A stretch of 64,000 bases of DNA from Stappia indica (GTDB lineage Bacteria; Pseudomonadota; Alphaproteobacteria; Rhizobiales; Stappiaceae), in assembly GCF_009789575.1 (NCBI RefSeq), contig NZ_CP046908.1:2831001-2895000 (forward strand), given 5' to 3'. How positions within the stretch are numbered: the first letter of the stretch is position 1; each line of letters starts with the position of its first letter. This document shows positions 10,882 to 19,929 of this stretch, in pieces. Below the pieces are notes generated by a model, which worked only from the letters and a program-made list of their open reading frames with translations, was not told the DNA's origin and searched no databases. A program made the position numbers and the translations under genes.

Positions 10882-10958
<77 letters not shown>

Positions 10959-11021
10959 AATTCCTCTTAAATTTCATACGATTGCACGGGGAGAAGTAGC
11001 GAGCCGCGCAGGTTTGACCGA

Positions 11022-12932
11022 CTAGGGCGTGTTGGTGGTCTGTGCGGCGACGAGAAACCATGCGGCGCGATCCGGACGCAGCAGGGAAGCGAGAACACTG
11101 GAGATGCGGACTGCGGGAGACGCCAGTATCGTGTCGGCGCTTAGATGCTCTTCGATCTTCGACCATTCGGCCACGAGATCACTGACGCTGAACACGGTGT
11201 GGCCAATGTTCAGCGAGAAGTTGGTCCCGTCCTCGATAAGGACTGCTCCGAATGTGGTAAAGTCTTTGGGGACGAAAATGTTTATGTTTACGTGGTCGAA
11301 GCCCTTCATCGCGCCGTCGGCGATATCAGCCAGCCCGCTCCGGTCCATGACCAAAAGCACCGCCGGCAAGAGGCTGGTCGGATTGGCCAGGATGGTCCGG
11401 AAGTCATTATAACGTTCCTCGGTCACGGCAGTCAGAAACTGCATCGCCTCCTTGCCGCTCAGCCCTGGATCGGCGATCCACCCGCCCCGTTGATGAAGAA
11501 ATGTGAGCAGAAGGCCAGAAATCGTTTCCAGCTCCTCCTCGCAACCCAGGACATTGGCTGCCGCCGCGAAAGACACGTAGAACGGAGTCATCTCGTCAGA
11601 CACTGGCACGATCGAATTACTGTAATGCGCCATTATCAGGCGCACGAGGTCGGCAGCCTTTGGAGCGGTTGCCGCTGTGCTCCCACCGGTGATGGTCTGT
11701 ATGTGGGCCGCGGCACCGAGCCAACCCAAGATGCTCATCAACCGCAGTGGCAGGAAGTAGAAGTCGGCGATGCCGCTGTCCTTCGAGAGCAACGCATAAG
11801 TGTCTTCGGTCAAGTCAGCCAAAAGTTGATCGGTCCCCTCGTCGATCGACTCTACGACCCCTTTCGATAGTTGCATGATTGCATCGGTGCAGTGCGTGCT
11901 GGACGCCGCCATCGGCAGAAGTGCGACCGCGCAAGCTGACTGGAGCCTAGCAACGTCGAAATGATCGCCCGTTGCGGCAATGCGGGCGCCGAAGGTCGTG
12001 GCCAGTCCCATTATAAAAGCGGCAGCGACTGCGGGCTCCCCCTCCAGTTTCGCGCAGACTGGCTGGATGACATCTAGAAACTGCTCGGCGTCGAACTCTC
12101 TGGTGAGCGATAGATACTGCTCCCAGATTGCGTCCGAAGCCGCGCGGATATGCTCGTTGCCTGCGCCGTCCGACGCCAAACCCGGGAACGTCTCGCTGAT
12201 GTGTGCGCTACCTCCGGAGAAGCGCGGATTCTTCGCGAGTTGGGAAATGCCGAAGAGATTGATCCCCCAGCAGACCGGGGACTGCTTTGTTCCCTGCATC
12301 GTCCTTGACACGACTTGTCCGACCTCAACTAGGTCAAGCGACGGCCGGGTTGTCTGAACGGGTGTTTCTCCTTTCAGGCACGACATAAGTGCGCTCGTGC
12401 AGTGCCCGTTTCCATCCGACTCTCCTGCATATTGGTCGGAACCCGCCGCTGCCAGGATCGAAATAGCCAATGATCCGGCCTTTCCAATGACATTGGGGTT
12501 GAGGAGGACGCCGATGTCATGGACGACGCCGCCTGCGTGGCAGGCGTCGACAATCAGGTTGGTGTGACGAATCTTCGCCTCGGTTATCCAGCCGAAGAGC
12601 TGTGGCATCGACAGGGCGTTCAGAGACATCCGGCCGACGTCGGTATCCTTCAGGCAAAGAAAGTAGCTGTTGTCCTTCACGCCGCCGTGTCCGGCAAAGA
12701 AGAACGTCAGTTCCTCGATGGGCGGGCCGGAGAAGAGCGCGACTTCGATGGTCGATCTCAACGCCGCCATCGTCGGCGACAGCAGCAGCTTCGACTGCGC
12801 CTGATCGTACTCACCCCAGTTCTTTGCCACGAGGTGCTCGAAGATTGTCGCTGCGTCGTTCTCCGCGCCCGCAAGGGGCTGGAGGGGCGAGTTGTCGTAG
12901 GCGTCGCAACCGATGGCGATCAGAACTCTCAG
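11022..12932 (-). CDS. Caspase-like (peptidase C14/metacaspase-type) protein with large uncharacterised C-terminal region
   Basis: Starting at a CTG at 12932 the protein is 636 residues and opens with [13 protein letters not shown], the usual first strand of bacterial caspase domains. The catalytic pair is clear: His82 in FFFAGHGG and Cys131 in IVDACHAGG. An Asp two residues before the Cys is the metacaspase-type feature linked to cleavage after Arg/Lys. The caspase fold ends near residue 230; the remaining ~400 residues look mainly helical and I recognise no domain. No signal peptide. The CTG overlaps the upstream gene's stop (CTGA, 12932-12929) with AGGAG seven bases before it; alternatives are TTG 12950 or ATG 13004, both within the upstream gene. 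GC content is visibly lower than in the flanks. Protease family is secure; a role in phage defence or regulated cell death is inference. Confidence 0.82.
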
Positions 12933-13540
12933 AGCGCGTCTCCTTCCCAAGCCGGAGGGAATTTCGCAAGTCGCTCGCTTTCCCGCTGTCTGGCGATTTT
13001 GCACTTCTTGGCCTTCACCTGTTCGACTCGCTCGGTGAACTCCGGTCCCTGTGCTTCGAGGTCGGCGATGGCCTTTCGTCCCATGTGAAATTGCGGCAGA
13101 CTGACCTCGCCATTCTCGTCAATGCCAAATTCGATCATCTCAAGAGCGGCCAAGAAGGCCTCGGCAGGAGACTGCCCTGGGCCGACGACAATTGTATTTC
13201 CCGATTTCTCGGTGGACTGGCTGATCGTCTGGTAGAGGGAAGCTTGGAACTGCGTCATCAGCCCCGCGACCAAACGGTTTCTCGCCTCAACGAACTTGGC
13301 CAGGTCGTGGTTGACGACATCGTCGAAGCGGGACAAGAATTCGACCGAAATCGCCTGCATTTCGCCGGCATCGTCGCCGTACCCCGTAGCCTTCGTCTTC
13401 CACATTCGGCCATGCGAGAATTTCTGTGAATTCCGGGGGGAGATGAGTTCGTCGCGCCGCTTCTGCAGCTCGGCCGCGACTTGTTTGGTGAACGCCTCGC
13501 TGAATTCATTGATGCGGCTGCGGTATCTGAATGGCGTCAC
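12929..13540 (-). CDS. Uncharacterised charged protein, partner of the caspase-like protease
   Basis: 203 residues, GTG start at 13540 (an in-frame TGA lies four codons upstream, so the start cannot be earlier). Highly charged and largely helical, with no signal peptide, membrane span or motif that I recognise. The middle has a small Gly/Pro turn (NTIVVGPGQSPAEAF), and the C-terminus is rich in Lys/Arg (VKAKKCKIARQRESERLAKF). It is the first gene of a two-gene operon with the caspase-like gene, whose start overlaps its stop. By analogy with other protease-partner modules it could be a sensor, inhibitor or substrate; the basic C-terminus would suit a protease that cuts after Arg/Lys. Function unknown. 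Confidence 0.75.
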   Translation of the reverse strand: MTPFRYRSRINEFSEAFTKQVAAELQKRRDELISPRNSQKFSHGRMWKTKATGYGDDAGEMQAISVEFLSRFDDVVNHDLAKFVEARNRLVAGLMTQFQASLYQTISQSTEKSGNTIVVGPGQSPAEAFLAALEMIEFGIDENGEVSLPQFHMGRKAIADLEAQGPEFTERVEQVKAKKCKIARQRESERLAKFPPAWEGDAL

Positions 13541-13574
13541 TTGGCCGACTCATAGTTGCAGTTATATTCAAACG

Positions 13575-13603
13575 ATTATAATCGTGAATCTATCTCCGAA
13601 CAA
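13575..13603 (-). promoter_or_regulatory. Promoter of the caspase operon with palindromic -10
   Basis: On the minus strand, TTGTTC (13603-13598) lies 17 bp from a perfect TATAAT (13580-13575). The -10 box is embedded in a 12-bp perfect palindrome CGATTATAATCG (13573-13584), a possible repressor site. Transcription would start about 30 nt before the GTG of the 203-residue gene. Confidence 0.65.
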
Positions 13604-13750
13604 CGTTTCGGACTTGACGATCCCAAGATTATCGACACGCTCACCGTCGGCGATGTTGTTTATCGGAATAGCTGTTCGGGAGTGGATAGAAAGAATTTGT
13701 CCACGATCTCTCTCATGATACATTAGAATCAAAGCTCAGTCCCCTCCCCC

Positions 13751-15604
13751 TCACTCCGGCCGGATGCGCAGCGCCCGCAGGGCGTTGAGGATCACGGCGA
13801 CGTCGATCACCTCTTGCAGCAGGGCGCCCTGCACCGGCGTCAGGTAGCCGAAGGCGGCGGCGAACATTCCCAGCACCGACAGGCCGATGCCGGCGACGAC
13901 GCTTTCCAGCGCGATCCGCCGCGCGGCGCGGGCGATCGTCATGCCGGCGCCGAGTTGCCCGATCCGGTCGACCAGGAGCACCACGTCCGCCGCCTCGGCC
14001 GAGGCCGCCGCCCCGCGCGCGCCCATGGCAACGCCCACATCGGCCGCCGCCAGCGCCGGCGCATCGTTGACGCCGTCGCCCACCATCATCACCGGGCCGT
14101 TCTTGCGTTCGGTGAGGACCAGCAGCACCTTCTGGTCGGGCGTCAGCCCGGCGCGCAGCCCGTCGAGGCCGAGCCCCTGCGTCACCCGCTCGGCCACGTC
14201 CGCCCGGTCGCCGGTCGCCAGCAGGATCCGCTTGATGCCGCCGCGCCGCAGCCCGGCCAGCATGGCGCCGACGCCCTCGCGCAAGGGGTCCGACATCACC
14301 AGATGCCCGGCCAGCCGCCCGTCCACCGCCACCGCGACGACCACCGCCCCGGCGGCGATCTCCGGCAGCGGGCCCGGTGTCTTCTCGCCGACAAGCCGCG
14401 CGACGAAGCCCGTGACGAAGCCGTGGCCGCCGACGACGACCGCGCGCCCCTCGACCTCGCCGCTCACCCCTTCGCCGGCGGCCTCGCTCACCGCCAGCGG
14501 CACGGCGAGCGCCAGGCCCTGCTCGCGCGCGGCGGCGACGATGGCCTGGGCGACCGGGTGTTTCGAGGCCTGGTCCAGCGAGGCGGCAAGGCGCAGCAGC
14601 TCCGCCTCGCCCAGGCCGTCCGCGGCCTCGATGGCGACGATCTGCGGCCGCCCGTCGGTCAGCGTGCCGGTCTTGTCGAGGATCAGCGTGCGGATGCGCG
14701 CCATGGCCTCCAGCGGCCCGGCGCCCTTGATCAGCACGCCGAAATGCGCCGCCCGCGACAGGCCGGCGACCAGCGCCACCGGCACGGCCAGGATCAGCGG
14801 GCAGGGCGTTGCCACCACCAGCACGGCGACGGCGCGGATCGGGTCGCCCGTCGCCCACCAGGCACCGAGCGCAATGGCCAGCGTCACCGCGAGAAAGCCC
14901 AGCGACCAGCGGTCGGCGAGCCGCGACATCGGCGCCTTGGAACGCTGCGCCGCCTCCACCAGCCGGACGATGCCGGCATAGGTGCTTTCCGCCGCGCGGC
15001 GGGTGGCGGTCATGTCGAATGCCTCGCCCGCATTGGTCGACCCGCTCATCGCCTCATTGCCCTGCGCCAGGCGCTGCGGCAGGGATTCCCCGGTCAGCGC
15101 TGAGGTGTCGAGGAAGGCGGTAGCGGAGGTCAGCGTGCCGTCGACCGGCACCACGTCGCCCTGCCGGATCAGCAGCCGGTCGCCGGGCTGGATCTCGCTG
15201 AGCGGCACATCCTCCAGCGCGCCGCCGCGATAGCGCGTCGCCGTGCGCGGCACCCGCGACAGCAGGTCGTGCATCTCGCGCCGCGCCCGCCCTTCGGCAA
15301 AGCTCTCCAGGAAGGTGCCGCCCGAATACATCACCGCGACCACGGCCGCCGCCAGCGTTTCGCCGAAGGCGAGCGCCGCGCTCATCGACAGCGCCGCGAC
15401 GATGTCGAGGCCGACCTCGCCGCGCCCGATGCTGCGGATGATCTCCACGACCAGCGCGACGAGCGCCGGCACCACGCCGGCGAACCAGACGAGGCGTGCG
15501 GTCTCGCCCTGGCCGGCCAGATAAAGGACGAGACCGCCGACCAGTCCGCCAACGGCAAGGATCAGGATCGCCGTCTTGAAACGGTCGGTCGCGCTGCGCT
15601 CCAT
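13751..15604 (-). CDS. Heavy-metal translocating P1B-type ATPase
   Basis: 617 residues, an inner-membrane metal exporter. Ordered features are N-terminal membrane helices without a cytosolic HMA domain, the actuator TGES loop (ALTGESLPQ about residue 172), the transmembrane metal motif TPCPLILAVP (about 266), the phosphorylation site DKTGTLTDG (about 313) and the hinge GDGVNDAPALAAADVGVAMG (about 516). The TPC motif differs from the CPC of Cu/Zn pumps and the SPC of CoaT-type pumps. The C-terminus lacks the HEGGT motif of the Co group (LLQEVIDVAVILN instead), so the metal is uncertain. It sits head-to-head with nikR beside nikABCDE, making nickel or cobalt efflux plausible. Confidence 0.88.
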   Translation of the reverse strand: MERSATDRFKTAILILAVGGLVGGLVLYLAGQGETARLVWFAGVVPALVALVVEIIRSIGRGEVGLDIVAALSMSAALAFGETLAAAVVAVMYSGGTFLESFAEGRARREMHDLLSRVPRTATRYRGGALEDVPLSEIQPGDRLLIRQGDVVPVDGTLTSATAFLDTSALTGESLPQRLAQGNEAMSGSTNAGEAFDMTATRRAAESTYAGIVRLVEAAQRSKAPMSRLADRWSLGFLAVTLAIALGAWWATGDPIRAVAVLVVATPCPLILAVPVALVAGLSRAAHFGVLIKGAGPLEAMARIRTLILDKTGTLTDGRPQIVAIEAADGLGEAELLRLAASLDQASKHPVAQAIVAAAREQGLALAVPLAVSEAAGEGVSGEVEGRAVVVGGHGFVTGFVARLVGEKTPGPLPEIAAGAVVVAVAVDGRLAGHLVMSDPLREGVGAMLAGLRRGGIKRILLATGDRADVAERVTQGLGLDGLRAGLTPDQKVLLVLTERKNGPVMMVGDGVNDAPALAAADVGVAMGARGAAASAEAADVVLLVDRIGQLGAGMTIARAARRIALESVVAGIGLSVLGMFAAAFGYLTPVQGALLQEVIDVAVILNALRALRIRPE

Positions 15605-15823
15605 GCGGCAATTCCCTTTGGCTGGCGCGCGGCCCGCCGGGGCCTCTCGCGCGTGGCTGGCGGCATCATCGCGCGCGGCGGCGGGCCCGTCGAGCCTGTC
15701 CGGCGTCGCATGCCTGTCGCAGGCGTGTTTCTCGCTGTCGCCCCCCCTCTGTCACCCGGATGGGGCAGCATCGCCCGTCCGCTTCTGCTATGGTCCCGCC
15801 GCACGGCGGAACGGAAAGGTGTC

Positions 15824-16339
15824 ATGGAACGTATCACGATCACGGTCGACGAGGATTTGTTGCGGGAGATCGACGCCCTCAGCGAGAAGCGCGGCTATGC
15901 CAGCCGCTCCGAGATCTTCCGCGACATGGCCCGCGAGGCGCTGGCGCGCGAGGCGATCGGCCCGGACGGCGAGCTCGACAACGACCGCCCCTGCTACGGC
16001 GCGCTCACCTATGTCTACGACCACGGCATCCGCGACCTGCCCAACCGCCTGACCGACAACCATCACGCCCATCACGCCCTGTCGGTCGCCACCACCCATG
16101 TCCATGTCAGCGCCGAGAACTGCCTGGAAGTGTCGATCCTGGCCGGCACCGCCGGCGAGCTGCGCCGCTTCGCCGACAGCGTGACCAGCCAGCGCGGCGT
16201 GCGCCACGGCAGCCTGCATGTCTTTCCCGCCGCGCCCGGCGAGACGCTGCTGCTGCGCGGCCAGCCCCATGCCCACCATCACACCCACGGGCACACCCAC
16301 GGGCACGACCAGGACAACGAGCCCGGCCGCGACCGCTGA
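15824..16339 (+). CDS. nikR: Nickel-responsive regulator NikR
   Basis: 171 residues. N-terminal ribbon-helix-helix (MERITITVDEDLLREID, YASRSEIFRDMAREAL) and C-terminal ACT-like metal domain. The high-affinity nickel ligands are present: an upstream His, then THVHVSAENCLEV supplying His-x-His and Cys. Ni-bound NikR represses nickel uptake. It lies directly upstream of nikABCDE, and a fitting operator is present in the gap. The protein carries an unusual His-rich tail (HAHHHTHGHTHGHD) beyond the normal C-terminus, which may buffer metal. Start ATG 15824 follows an AAAGGTG site. Confidence 0.94.
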   Translation: MERITITVDEDLLREIDALSEKRGYASRSEIFRDMAREALAREAIGPDGELDNDRPCYGALTYVYDHGIRDLPNRLTDNHHAHHALSVATTHVHVSAENCLEVSILAGTAGELRRFADSVTSQRGVRHGSLHVFPAAPGETLLLRGQPHAHHHTHGHTHGHDQDNEPGRDR

Positions 16340-16387
16340 CCTTCCAATCGCGCCTTGACCGGTAGGGGAGCTTGACCGGATGGGGCG

Positions 16388-16415
16388 GTATGATGTTATT
16401 GAAATAACTCACACC
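16388..16415. promoter_or_regulatory. NikR operator upstream of nikA
   Basis: The site reads GGTATGAT-GTTATT-GA-AATAAC-TCACACC, an extended inverted repeat whose ends fit the classical NikR half-site GTATGA. The inner arms GTTATT/AATAAC are perfect. The spacer between GTATGA and TCACAC is 15 bp, not the 16 bp of the E. coli site, because the left arm has one extra T. It lies 25 bp before the nikA start. Confidence 0.75.
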
Positions 16416-16440
16416 GTCTCTCCTGCCCTGAAAGCGACCG

Positions 16441-18078
16441 ATGTTCGAGGTTTTTCGCGGCGCAGCGCGCGCTCTTGCCCGTTCCGCCCTTCTTGCCGGC
16501 CTGATTCTCCCCTCGACCCTGGTGTCCCTTCCGGTCCCCCTCTCGTCGGCGCCTGCCGCCGCGGACGGGCCGGATCTCGCCTTTTCCTGGCCGCTCAATG
16601 TCGGCCCGCTCAACCCGCATCTCTATTCGCCGAACCAGATGTTCGCGCAGGCCATGGTCTACGAGCCGCTGGTGCGCTACCGCGCGGACGGCACGGTCGT
16701 GCCCTGGCTCGCCGCCTCCTGGGACGTGTCGGAGGACGGGCGCGTCTACACCTTCGCCCTGCGCGAGGATGTGACCTTTTCCAACGGCGAGCCCTTCGAT
16801 GCCGCCGCCGCCAAGGCGAATTTCGACGCGATCCTCGCCAACCGGTCCCGCCATGCCTGGCTGGAGCTCGCCAACCAGATCGTCTCGGCTAAGGTCGCCG
16901 GCCCGCATCTGTTGCGGCTGACGCTCAAGGACGCCTATTACCCGGTGCTGCAGGAACTGGCGCTGCCCCGCCCCTTCCGCTTCATCGCGCCCTCGCAATT
17001 CGTCGACGGCGGCACCAAGGACGGCATCGCCGCTCCCGTCGGCACCGGCCCCTGGCTGCTCACCGAGACCTCGCTCGGCGAGCGCGACGTCTTTGCGCGC
17101 AACGAGGCCTATTGGGGCGACAGGCCGGCCTATGCCTCGGTCACCGTCAAGGTCATCCCGGATCCCAACACCCGCGCCATCGCCTTCGAGACCGGCGAGA
17201 TCGACCTGATCTACGGCACCGACGGGCCGATCTCGCCCGACACGTTCGAGCGTTTTCGTTCCATGGGCGAGCGGGCGGGCATCACCGCCGCCCTGTCGGA
17301 GCCGCTGGAAAGCCGGGTCCTGGCGCTCAACAGCAATCGCGGCGCCACGCGCGATCTTGCCGTGCGCCGGGCGATCAGCCACGCGGTCGACAAGGACACG
17401 ATGATCGCGACCGTGCTCTACGGCACCCAGCGCCGTGCCGACACGCTGTTCGCGCCCAACGTGCCGTATGCCGATATCGGCCTTGCGCCCTATCCTTACG
17501 ACCTCGACGAGGCGCGGCGCCTGCTGGAGGCGGCCGGCTGGACCGCACCCGACGACGGCGGCATCCGCGAGAAGGACGGCGCGCGGCTGAGCATCGAGCT
17601 CTGCTTCGTCGGCACGGATGCGGTCGCCAAGTCGATGGCCGAGATCGTCCAGGCGGACCTGCGCCGCGTCGGCATCGAGGTCCTGCTCACCGGCGAGGAG
17701 GAGAGCAGCATCTATGCCCGCCAGCGCGACGGCCGCTTCGGCATGATCTTCAACCGCACCTGGGGCGCGCCCTACGATCCGCATGCCTTCGTCAGCTCCA
17801 TGCGCCTGCCCTCCCATGCCGATTACCAGGCCCAGCTCGGCCTCGCCGACAAGGCCGAGATCGATGCGATGATCGGCAAGGTGCTGGTCACCACCGACGA
17901 GGCGGCGCGGCAGCAGATCTACCGCGATCTCCTCACCCGCCTGCACGACCAGGCGGTCTACCTGCCGCTCACCTATGTCACCGCCGTCGCCGCCGCGCGC
18001 CGGTCGGTGGGAGAGGTGCCCTTCGGCGCCATGTCGAGCGAGATCCCCTTCGACCGCCTGACCCCGGCGGCGGACTGA
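16441..18078 (+). CDS. nikA: Nickel ABC transporter substrate-binding protein NikA
   Basis: 545-residue periplasmic protein of the SBP_bac_5 family with a signal peptide (cleavage near SAPAAADG, about residue 40). Mature protein starts [35 protein letters not shown], characteristic of NikA rather than oligopeptide-binding proteins. Further blocks are [31 protein letters not shown] and [15 protein letters not shown]. It captures nickel, probably as a small-ligand complex, and delivers it to NikBCDE. First gene of a tightly packed operon under the NikR site. Confidence 0.92.
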
Positions 18079-18082
18079 GCCG

Positions 18083-19027
18083 ATGGCCGGGTTCATCCTC
18101 CGCCGCGTCCTTCTGCTGGTGCCGATGCTGCTCGGCGCCTCGCTGGTCGTCTTCCTGATGCTGCGGCTGGGGCCGAGCGACCCGGCGATGGACTATCTGC
18201 GCCTGTCCAAGGTGCCGCCGACGCCGCAGGCGCTGGAGGACGCGCGCATGATGCTCGGGCTCGACCGGCCGATCCTGACCCAGTATCTCGACTGGCTCGG
18301 CAAGGCGGTGCGGCTCGATTTCGGTGTCTCCTATGCCACCCAGCGCCCGGTGCTGCCGGACCTGCTGCACTTCCTGCCGGCAACGCTGCAGCTCGCCGGT
18401 GTCGCGCTGGCGCTGACCATCGGCCTTTCGGTGCCGCTCGGCATCTGGGCGGCGCGCCACCGCGAGCGCTGGCCGGACCACCTGGTGCGGCTGATCGCCT
18501 TCATCGGCGTCTCGATGCCGAATTTCTGGCTCGGCTTTCTGCTCGTGTTGCTGTTCTCGGTCCATCTCGGCTGGCTGCCGGCGATGGGGCGTGGCGGGCT
18601 TGCCCATCTGGTGATGCCGGCGCTCGCCATCTCGTTCATGTCGCTCGCCATCAACGCCCGGCTGCTGCGCGCCAGCATGCTGGAGGCTGCCGGCCAGCCG
18701 CATGTGCGCTATGCGCGGCTGCGCGGCCTGCCCGAGCGGCGGGTCGAGCGCGCCCATGTGCTGCGCAATGCCTGGCTGCCCGTCATCACTGCCATGGGCA
18801 TGCATGTCGGCGAGATGATCGGCGGCACCCTGATCATCGAAAGCATCTTCGGCTGGCCCGGCGTCGGCCGCTACGCCGTCTCGGCCATCCTCAACCGCGA
18901 CTATCCGGTCATCCAGTGCTTCACCCTGGCGATGGTCGCCATCTTCATGCTGTGCAATCTCGTGGTCGACATCGTCTATGCGCTGGCCGACCCGCGCATC
19001 CGCCTGTCGGCGGAGGGGGTGGAATGA
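18083..19027 (+). CDS. nikB: Nickel ABC transporter permease NikB
   Basis: 314-residue inner-membrane permease, BPD_transp_1 family with six helices and an N-terminal [29 protein letters not shown] typical of DppB/NikB. The EAA-type loop is near [24 protein letters not shown]. It begins four bases after nikA stops and overlaps nikC by ATGA. Confidence 0.92.
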
Positions 19028-19929
19028 CCGACCTGCCGCTCTCTGGCCCTGCTGGGGGTCCTTCCGCCCGTCCCTCCCGCCGTCTCCTTTCCCGGCTGGC
19101 CGCGCCCTTCTCCGGCCGCTGGCCGGTGCGCATCGCCCTTGCCGTCGTCGCCCTGCTGCTGGTCGCCGCGCTCGCCGGTCCCTGGATCTCGCCGCACGAT
19201 CCGGACGCGATCGACCTGACCCAGCGCCTGCAGGGCGCCGATGCCGTCCACTGGCTCGGCACCGATCATCTCGGCCGCGACATCCTTTCCCGGCTGATTG
19301 CCGGCGTGCGGGTCTCGCTCGGCGTCGTCGCGCTGACGCTGGCGCTCATTCTCGTGCTCGGCATCGTGGTCGGCGGCGCCTCCGGCTTCATCGGCGGCCG
19401 CACCGACCAGCTGATCATGCGCGTCACCGACGTGTTCCTCACCTTCCCCACCCTGGTGCTGGCCCTGTTCATGATCGGCATGCTCGGCACCGGCCTCGTC
19501 AACGTGGTCATCGCCATCGCCCTGTCGCACTGGGCCTGGTATGCGCGCATCGTCCGCGGCATCGTCCTGTCGCTGCGCCATCGCGACTACCTGCTCGCCG
19601 CCCGCCTTGCCGGGGCGAGCCGGCTGCGCATCTTCGCCGCCCACCTGCTGCCCGCCACCCTGTCGCAGCTGCTGGTGCTCGCCACGCTCGATATCGGCCA
19701 CATGATGCTGCATGTCTCCGGTCTCTCCTTCCTCGGCCTCGGCGTCGCCCCGCCGACTGCCGAATGGGGCGTGATGATCGGCGATGCGCGCCAGTTCGTC
19801 TGGACCGCGCCCATGCTGATCTTCTGGCCGGGCCTGGCGCTCTTCGTCTCGGTGATGGCGTTCAACATCCTGGGCGACGCGCTGCGCGACCGTCTCGACC
19901 CGCATCTGAGGGCGGACCATTGTCACTGA
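19024..19929 (+). CDS. nikC: Nickel ABC transporter permease NikC
   Basis: 301-residue second permease, DppC/NikC type: a cytoplasmic N-terminal tail of about 35 residues, then six helices. Key segments are [24 protein letters not shown] (the conserved GTDxxGRD motif) and [19 protein letters not shown] (EAA loop). ATG overlaps the nikB stop. Confidence 0.92.

Follow-up and report, generated by a model that had tools for sequence, protein, structure and literature searches.

What is a caspase-like protease doing beside a tRNA gene in the company of a small protein of no recognisable family? Bacterial caspase systems are known, and their switch is often unclear. This question was raised by a 64,000-nucleotide stretch of Stappia indica DNA (hereafter the window), for which a first-pass annotation had proposed a two-gene regulated-proteolysis module with the small protein as sensor, inhibitor or substrate. 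Our analysis places the main interest of the locus in the exchange of effectors behind one partner family and in the two-module build of the partner, rather than in the caspase alone.

The gene pair and its insertion site

Both open reading frames were present on the minus strand: one of 203 aa with a GTG start (12929-13540), hereafter the partner, and one of 660 aa (11022-13004) read from a GTG at 13004. The likely start of the caspase-like gene is a CTG at 12932 (codon 12930-12932) with AAGGAG 7 nt upstream, which gives an effector of 636 aa (11022-12932) whose start overlaps the partner stop by 4 nt, in line with the earlier description of a 203-residue protein preceding the caspase in the same operon. 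TTG replaces CTG at this start codon in four close relatives, and the CTG of the window may be an uncommon start codon or may have arisen recently, possibly lowering expression. The pair follows tRNA-Arg(CCG) (10882-10958, plus strand; located with ARAGORN), which borders a variable segment (10963-13740) extending to a P-type-ATPase-like gene. The lower-GC block that had been noticed after the tRNA gene was confirmed: GC content is 0.586-0.597 in 1-kb windows whose starts lie at 11001-13001 and 0.636-0.759 in all others across the first 30 kb. The right flank (13751-18078), as judged by eye, holds ORFs resembling a P-type ATPase (minus strand), NikR and a nickel/peptide-binding protein.

Close copies of the pair, with identities of 78-86% in the partner and 86-91% in the caspase, occur in Mesorhizobium B4-1-3, Mesorhizobium BR1-1-16, Rhodopseudomonas pentothenatexigens and Ancylobacter sonchi. 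The DNA that the window has in common with L002, L004 and L005 starts 84-94 nt ahead of the partner gene and ends no more than 7 nt from the caspase stop; since this common DNA ends at the gene borders, the two genes are the unit, a mobile two-gene cassette. Against four relatives, the common DNA begins at 13622-13634 on the upstream side, and the stretch 13541-13634 (minus strand) common to them in the DNA alignment is a probable promoter or leader. Longer DNA is in common with L003, because that copy likewise adjoins tRNA-Arg(CCG); this tRNA gene also flanks the pair in Rhodopseudomonas. At 2.6 kb, the cassette would be close to the lower size limit of a regulated protease defence.

The tRNA-side probe was matched in 14 of 14 genomes of the genus (own genome included), and the longer flank of this probe was matched in 3 of the other 13. 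In these three genomes (L030, L031 and L032), the other flank was also common, with 91-95% DNA identity, and different cargo of 1.1-2.2 kb with 47-54% GC was located between the flanks. One cargo matched the PADLOC models beta (157.6 bits) and cll (113.3 bits), and the two proteins tested from a second matched nothing in PADLOC or Pfam. The site beside tRNA-Arg(CCG) is a hotspot for small cargo, one such cargo containing 412-aa and 217-aa ORFs of no known family. At L029, a locus from the window's own family, a tyrosine-integrase-like gene matching the HP1 integrase (E=2.5e-7) starts about 80 nt after tRNA-Arg(CCG), on an island that also bears a pair of the second type described below. An att site formed by duplication of the tRNA was rejected, as no repeat of the tRNA 3′ end was detected (best, 4 mismatches in 15).

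One partner family, two effector types

Relatives of the partner were rare in whole genomes (2 of 151 in the near sample, 3 of 385 in the class, 2 of 398 in the phylum and 3 of 397 in the order, in overlapping samples that each count the own genome), and searches of plasmids, phages and IMG/VR contributed the further loci L006, L008, L040 and L052. With near-copies excluded, the family comprises 14 distinct loci; left out were L053 and L069 (partner identical to that of L052, caspase cut by the contig end), L051 and L068 (on the same contigs as L040 and L052), L061 and G1065 (in the same place as L004), and a second identical copy on CP144550. The two partner copies on CP144550.1 (L006), at 11769-12374 and 342949-343554, have identical scores and lie near both ends of a record called circular, probably representing an assembly overlap.

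In all 14 loci, the partner gene is directly upstream of one large effector gene. Homologues of the partner found mostly without a caspase had been named as grounds for refuting the module, and by that rule the idea survives: a caspase lies downstream in 9 of the 14 loci (type A: the window, L002-L006, L008, L040 and L052) and a nuclease-like protein in the other five (type B: L029, L048, L049, L050 and L064). A 4-nt overlap joins the type A genes in seven of nine loci; of the other two, one has a 13-nt overlap and one a 2-nt gap. In type B, the overlap of the frames is 35 nt or more in 5/5. On a tree of the C-terminal module of the partner, defined below, the effector types are separated by one branch (support, 98/96), and therefore a single exchange of effectors suffices.

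Among five close copies (10 pairs per gene), the caspase has a dN/dS of 0.16-0.20 and the partner one of 0.28-0.43, values indicative of purifying selection on both genes and of faster evolution of the partner, and the two genes still occur side by side in relatives with identities as low as 26-33%. This recurrence and the low dN/dS of both genes argue that the pairing is not fortuitous. It is highly improbable that the partner is an ordinary helper of unrelated function travelling with whatever gene lies downstream: although the sample is small (14 loci of a rare family, five of the nine caspase loci being close copies), every locus has one of just two effector families, always next to the partner and in a constant order, and the effector type follows the partner tree. 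The profile of the caspase C-terminal region was found in 1 of 289 class genomes (the own genome, with the partner) and the nuclease-type profile in two, both with the partner, so that neither effector family was seen without the partner among these 289 genomes. Viral contigs yielded no relative when searched with the window partner, with the nuclease-type profile or with the L049 and L008 partners, and the same outcome was obtained for plasmids and phages searched with the nuclease-type effector and for E. coli searched with the DNA of the L008 pair.

These data refine the proposal of a two-gene regulated-proteolysis module, which holds in that the genes are always linked and form a mobile two-gene unit and falls short in that the partner is not specific to the caspase, five of the 14 loci having a different predicted enzyme in its place. 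The module is broader, and regulated proteolysis is one of its outputs. Because the directly linked enzyme in the five nuclease-type loci is not a protease, a role of the partner as a caspase substrate is unlikely; the partner may be a sensor or an inhibitor.

The effector of the window carries the caspase motifs FFFAGHGG and IVDACHAGG, with the predicted catalytic residues His82 and Cys131 (codons 12687-12689 and 12540-12542, minus strand, computed from the start at 12932). The same numbering had been given in the first-pass annotation, which described a caspase-fold protein with both residues intact, and both are kept in 9/9 caspases of the family. The caspase assignment of the window protein follows from its match to the PADLOC model 'caspase' (PDLC02987; 41.4 bits), from a match of 63.3 bits to NCBIfam NF047832 (caspase_w_EACC1) that lies below the cut-off of 140, and from the matches of its relatives. 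PF00656 was matched by 4 of 8 family members (best, 2.7e-9), the window protein not being among them and having no Pfam match at E≤1, and the family profile weakly matched metacaspase-1 in the PDB (E=0.0076). In the AlphaFold2 model (mean pLDDT, 60.4), the caspase domain is poor, with pLDDT mostly below 50, and blocks between residues 281 and 480 mostly reach 72-94. The C-terminal region (residues 240-636; 11025-12215, minus strand) is mostly helical in this model, its first Foldseek rows being mostly TPR domains with none at E≤0.001, and it is predicted to be a helical scaffold.

The type B effectors (541-569 aa) carry an E...GKD...QLKG motif, of which E, GKD and QLKG are present in 5/5. Read by eye, this motif predicts a PD-(D/E)XK, Mrr-like nuclease. 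Pfam and PADLOC searches gave no match to a nuclease model, with two unrelated weak matches alone in Pfam at E≤10, and PDB profiles gave no nuclease match, the matches obtained lying outside the motif region. The C-terminal regions of the two effector types looked alike by eye, and a common C-terminal domain found no support in pairwise comparison and hhalign (E, 0.05-0.19); no homology between these regions was detectable, and a common dock is thus not supported.

A two-module partner and its candidate role

The partner had been described as a protein with no recognisable domain, and our searches led to the same result. The window partner matched no model in Pfam, PADLOC (run on this protein alone) or NCBIfam, and its structure model, weak and helical (pLDDT, 68.1; pTM, 0.44), had no fold match in Foldseek. 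Membership in a known family was rejected at the level of the family as well, with best values of 0.0015 in Pfam (E; one of 12 members), 0.0077 in NCBIfam (one of 12 members), 0.013 in PHROGs (13 members), 0.2 for the PDB profile and 3.7 in Foldseek.

The full partners of types A and B are homologous (hhalign probability, 99.1; E=1.8e-18). When they are divided at residue 75, a boundary that we picked after this full-length comparison, the C-modules (residues 76-203; 12932-13315, minus strand) match between the types (probability, 99.1; E=6.7e-19), and the N-modules (residues 1-75; 13316-13540, minus strand) have no detectable match between the types (E=0.25) and yet are conserved among type A partners (E=4.8e-14 and 1.2e-12) and among type B partners (E=9.9e-10), all of these E-values being rough figures from single comparisons. 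The modules were distinguishable from shuffled sequence by profile comparison only, not by raw pairwise identity, which was rejected as evidence for the N-modules since the shuffle control gave as much identity as the real pairs. Judged by these profiles, the partner is built of two modules, a C-terminal one common to the caspase and nuclease-like types and an N-terminal one matched to the effector type. This build speaks against a substrate and in favour of a regulator common to both types, with a docking part that fits each of them. In the aligned part, the window partner is without four residues of a C-module loop that four close relatives hold (203 versus 207 aa).

We favour, with moderate confidence, a two-gene conflict cassette that spreads horizontally and most likely acts against phages by abortive infection, in which a constant regulator is combined with an exchangeable effector, and we infer complex formation, docking, sensing, killing and defence along the following lines. 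The partner would be the constant regulatory component. The constancy of the C-module under changing effectors suggests a shared input, and it is probably through this module that the infection signal is received or the on/off state is set; the N-module, matched to the effector type, looks like a docking part and probably binds the corresponding effector. The 3′ gene would supply the effector, a caspase-like protease with a helical C-terminal scaffold in the window and a predicted PD-(D/E)XK nuclease in the sister type. Partner and effector would probably be made together by translational coupling and kept as an inactive complex until infection activates the enzyme, which would cut proteins (type A) or nucleic acid (type B) and halt phage growth, the cell itself probably being sacrificed. 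An infection-triggered stop switch is the simplest reading because the two outputs are different and both are harmful when unleashed.

More tentatively, the partner may be a plug-in immune adaptor in which a conserved sensing module (residues 76-203) is carried on exchangeable docking modules (residues 1-75), so that one infection alarm is wired to a caspase-like protease in one lineage and to a DNA-cutting enzyme in another, all within a minimal mobile cassette of two genes. A regulator homologous across protease and nuclease-like systems lets one ask which half senses and which half docks, and it suggests that one bacterial alarm module can be connected to different killing enzymes.

The arrangement of a small 5′ gene before a larger 3′ enzyme gene, with the 4-nt overlap in seven of nine caspase-type loci, the mobile and scattered distribution, and the faster evolution of the partner are also what a toxin-antitoxin system would present, in which the partner would be a plain inhibitor translated first from the common message, the effector would be freed on loss of the partner, and the cassette would maintain itself with phage protection as a by-product. 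We regard this explanation as rather unlikely, since a protein that merely inhibits two different enzymes would have no need to retain a strongly conserved common module while its other half varies with the type, and effectors of 542-636 aa with long C-terminal regions are large for toxins.

Relation to known caspase systems and genomic context

The systems closest to the pair are described ones in which a caspase is combined with a second component. According to Kaur et al. 2020 (PMC7159879), EACC1-caspase systems have two genes, a small constant 5′ gene and a 3′ gene with a caspase-superfamily N-terminal domain; EACC1 is defined by a conserved transmembrane helix, and the caspase is sometimes replaced by another enzyme, a cNMP cyclase. 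The pair in the window likewise has a small constant 5′ gene followed by a caspase gene, and its caspase weakly matches the NCBIfam EACC1-caspase model, although the 63.3 bits obtained fall short of the NF047832 cut-off of 140. Unlike EACC1, the partners here have no transmembrane helix, as no hydrophobic stretch was found in 13 of the 14 partner sequences (top 19-residue Kyte-Doolittle mean, 0.22-1.23), and the whole effector, including its C-terminal region, is swapped for a nuclease-like protein.

Type IV Thoeris is a TIR protein with a caspase-like protease (Rousset et al. 2025, as cited in PMC12847820), and it shares with our pair the caspase-like effector and the two-gene order with the caspase second. 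The nearest plasmid-borne caspases have 27-33% identity to the window caspase over 134-188 aa, and a TIR gene was directly upstream of the plasmid caspase in 8 of the 10 regions inspected, out of 29 non-Sulfitobacter records with a match. In contrast, no TIR match was obtained in 12 partner members (Pfam, E≤0.1), no TIR gene lies beside the window pair, whose neighbours are the tRNA gene and the P-type-ATPase-like ORF, and the effector here has about 400 extra C-terminal residues beyond the caspase domain. TIR and caspase pairs resembling type IV Thoeris (L054-L060, L070) were observed on plasmids of Enterobacterales, Rhizobium, Sinorhizobium, Rhodococcus and Methylobacterium.

In Canu, as described in PMC12799240, a caspase with an Ig-like domain (CanA), CanB and a pro-nuclease (CanC) are encoded in one locus, and CanA and CanB co-elute as a soluble complex. 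Both systems, going by that description, have a caspase with an accompanying protein of unclear role, a nuclease theme and a connection with defence islands. Whereas Canu has caspase and nuclease together, the caspase and the nuclease-like protein are alternatives here, and no pro-nuclease gene is present in the cassette, whose border lies no more than 7 nt from the caspase stop in comparison with three relatives. The C-terminus of CanA, by the same account, is Ig-like, and that of our effector is predicted to be mostly helical, with the TPR-like Foldseek rows that stay above the E-value of 0.001. The co-elution of CanA and CanB (PMC12799240) would suit a partner that, instead of being itself a sensor, acts as an activating subunit or signal receptor in the manner of CanB, with the trigger made or sensed by something encoded elsewhere, and the shared C-module could read a common signal. 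This arrangement is, in our view, quite unlikely, as no other gene is regularly linked to the pair and the shared DNA holds the two genes alone.

The EACC2/TRADD-N systems, in which EACC2 is fused to the caspase protein (PMC8195603), also combine a constant component with a caspase of variable C-terminus; compared by description, they differ in that the constant component here is a separate 5′ gene. Assignment of the pair to EACC1, type IV Thoeris or Canu was rejected, since a tested defining feature failed for each, in agreement with the earlier remark that the pair was not recognisable as a named system. The pair was not found described in the open-licence literature. The partner-caspase pair resembles EACC1-caspase, type IV Thoeris and Canu, and it would add an unnamed two-gene system to them.

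We infer the defence role of the cassette from the Gabija system near one copy, from the occurrence of other copies on IMG/VR contigs (L040 and L052) and from the cargo hotspot. The earlier suggestion to look for defence genes near homologues gave a mixed picture: at L008 (MT835554), GajB and GajA are matched over their full length (913 and 1140 bits) at a distance of 2.4 kb from the pair, but L002 and L004, as judged by eye, are among housekeeping-looking genes, which counts against the defence reading. The GajA/GajB genes of L008 are at 14902-19070 on a fecal scaffold deposited as 'Bacteriophage sp.'. L050 adjoins HEPN/nucleotidyltransferase and DUF4365 genes, and L005 adjoins a DUF4238 gene. 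L052 is near a gene matching PDB 2r2a (E=7.4e-17), which we take to be a Zot-like inovirus protein. On the IMG/VR contigs of L052 and L053, which carry an identical partner, the type A pair was located near this 2r2a-matching gene and a recombinase-like ORF.
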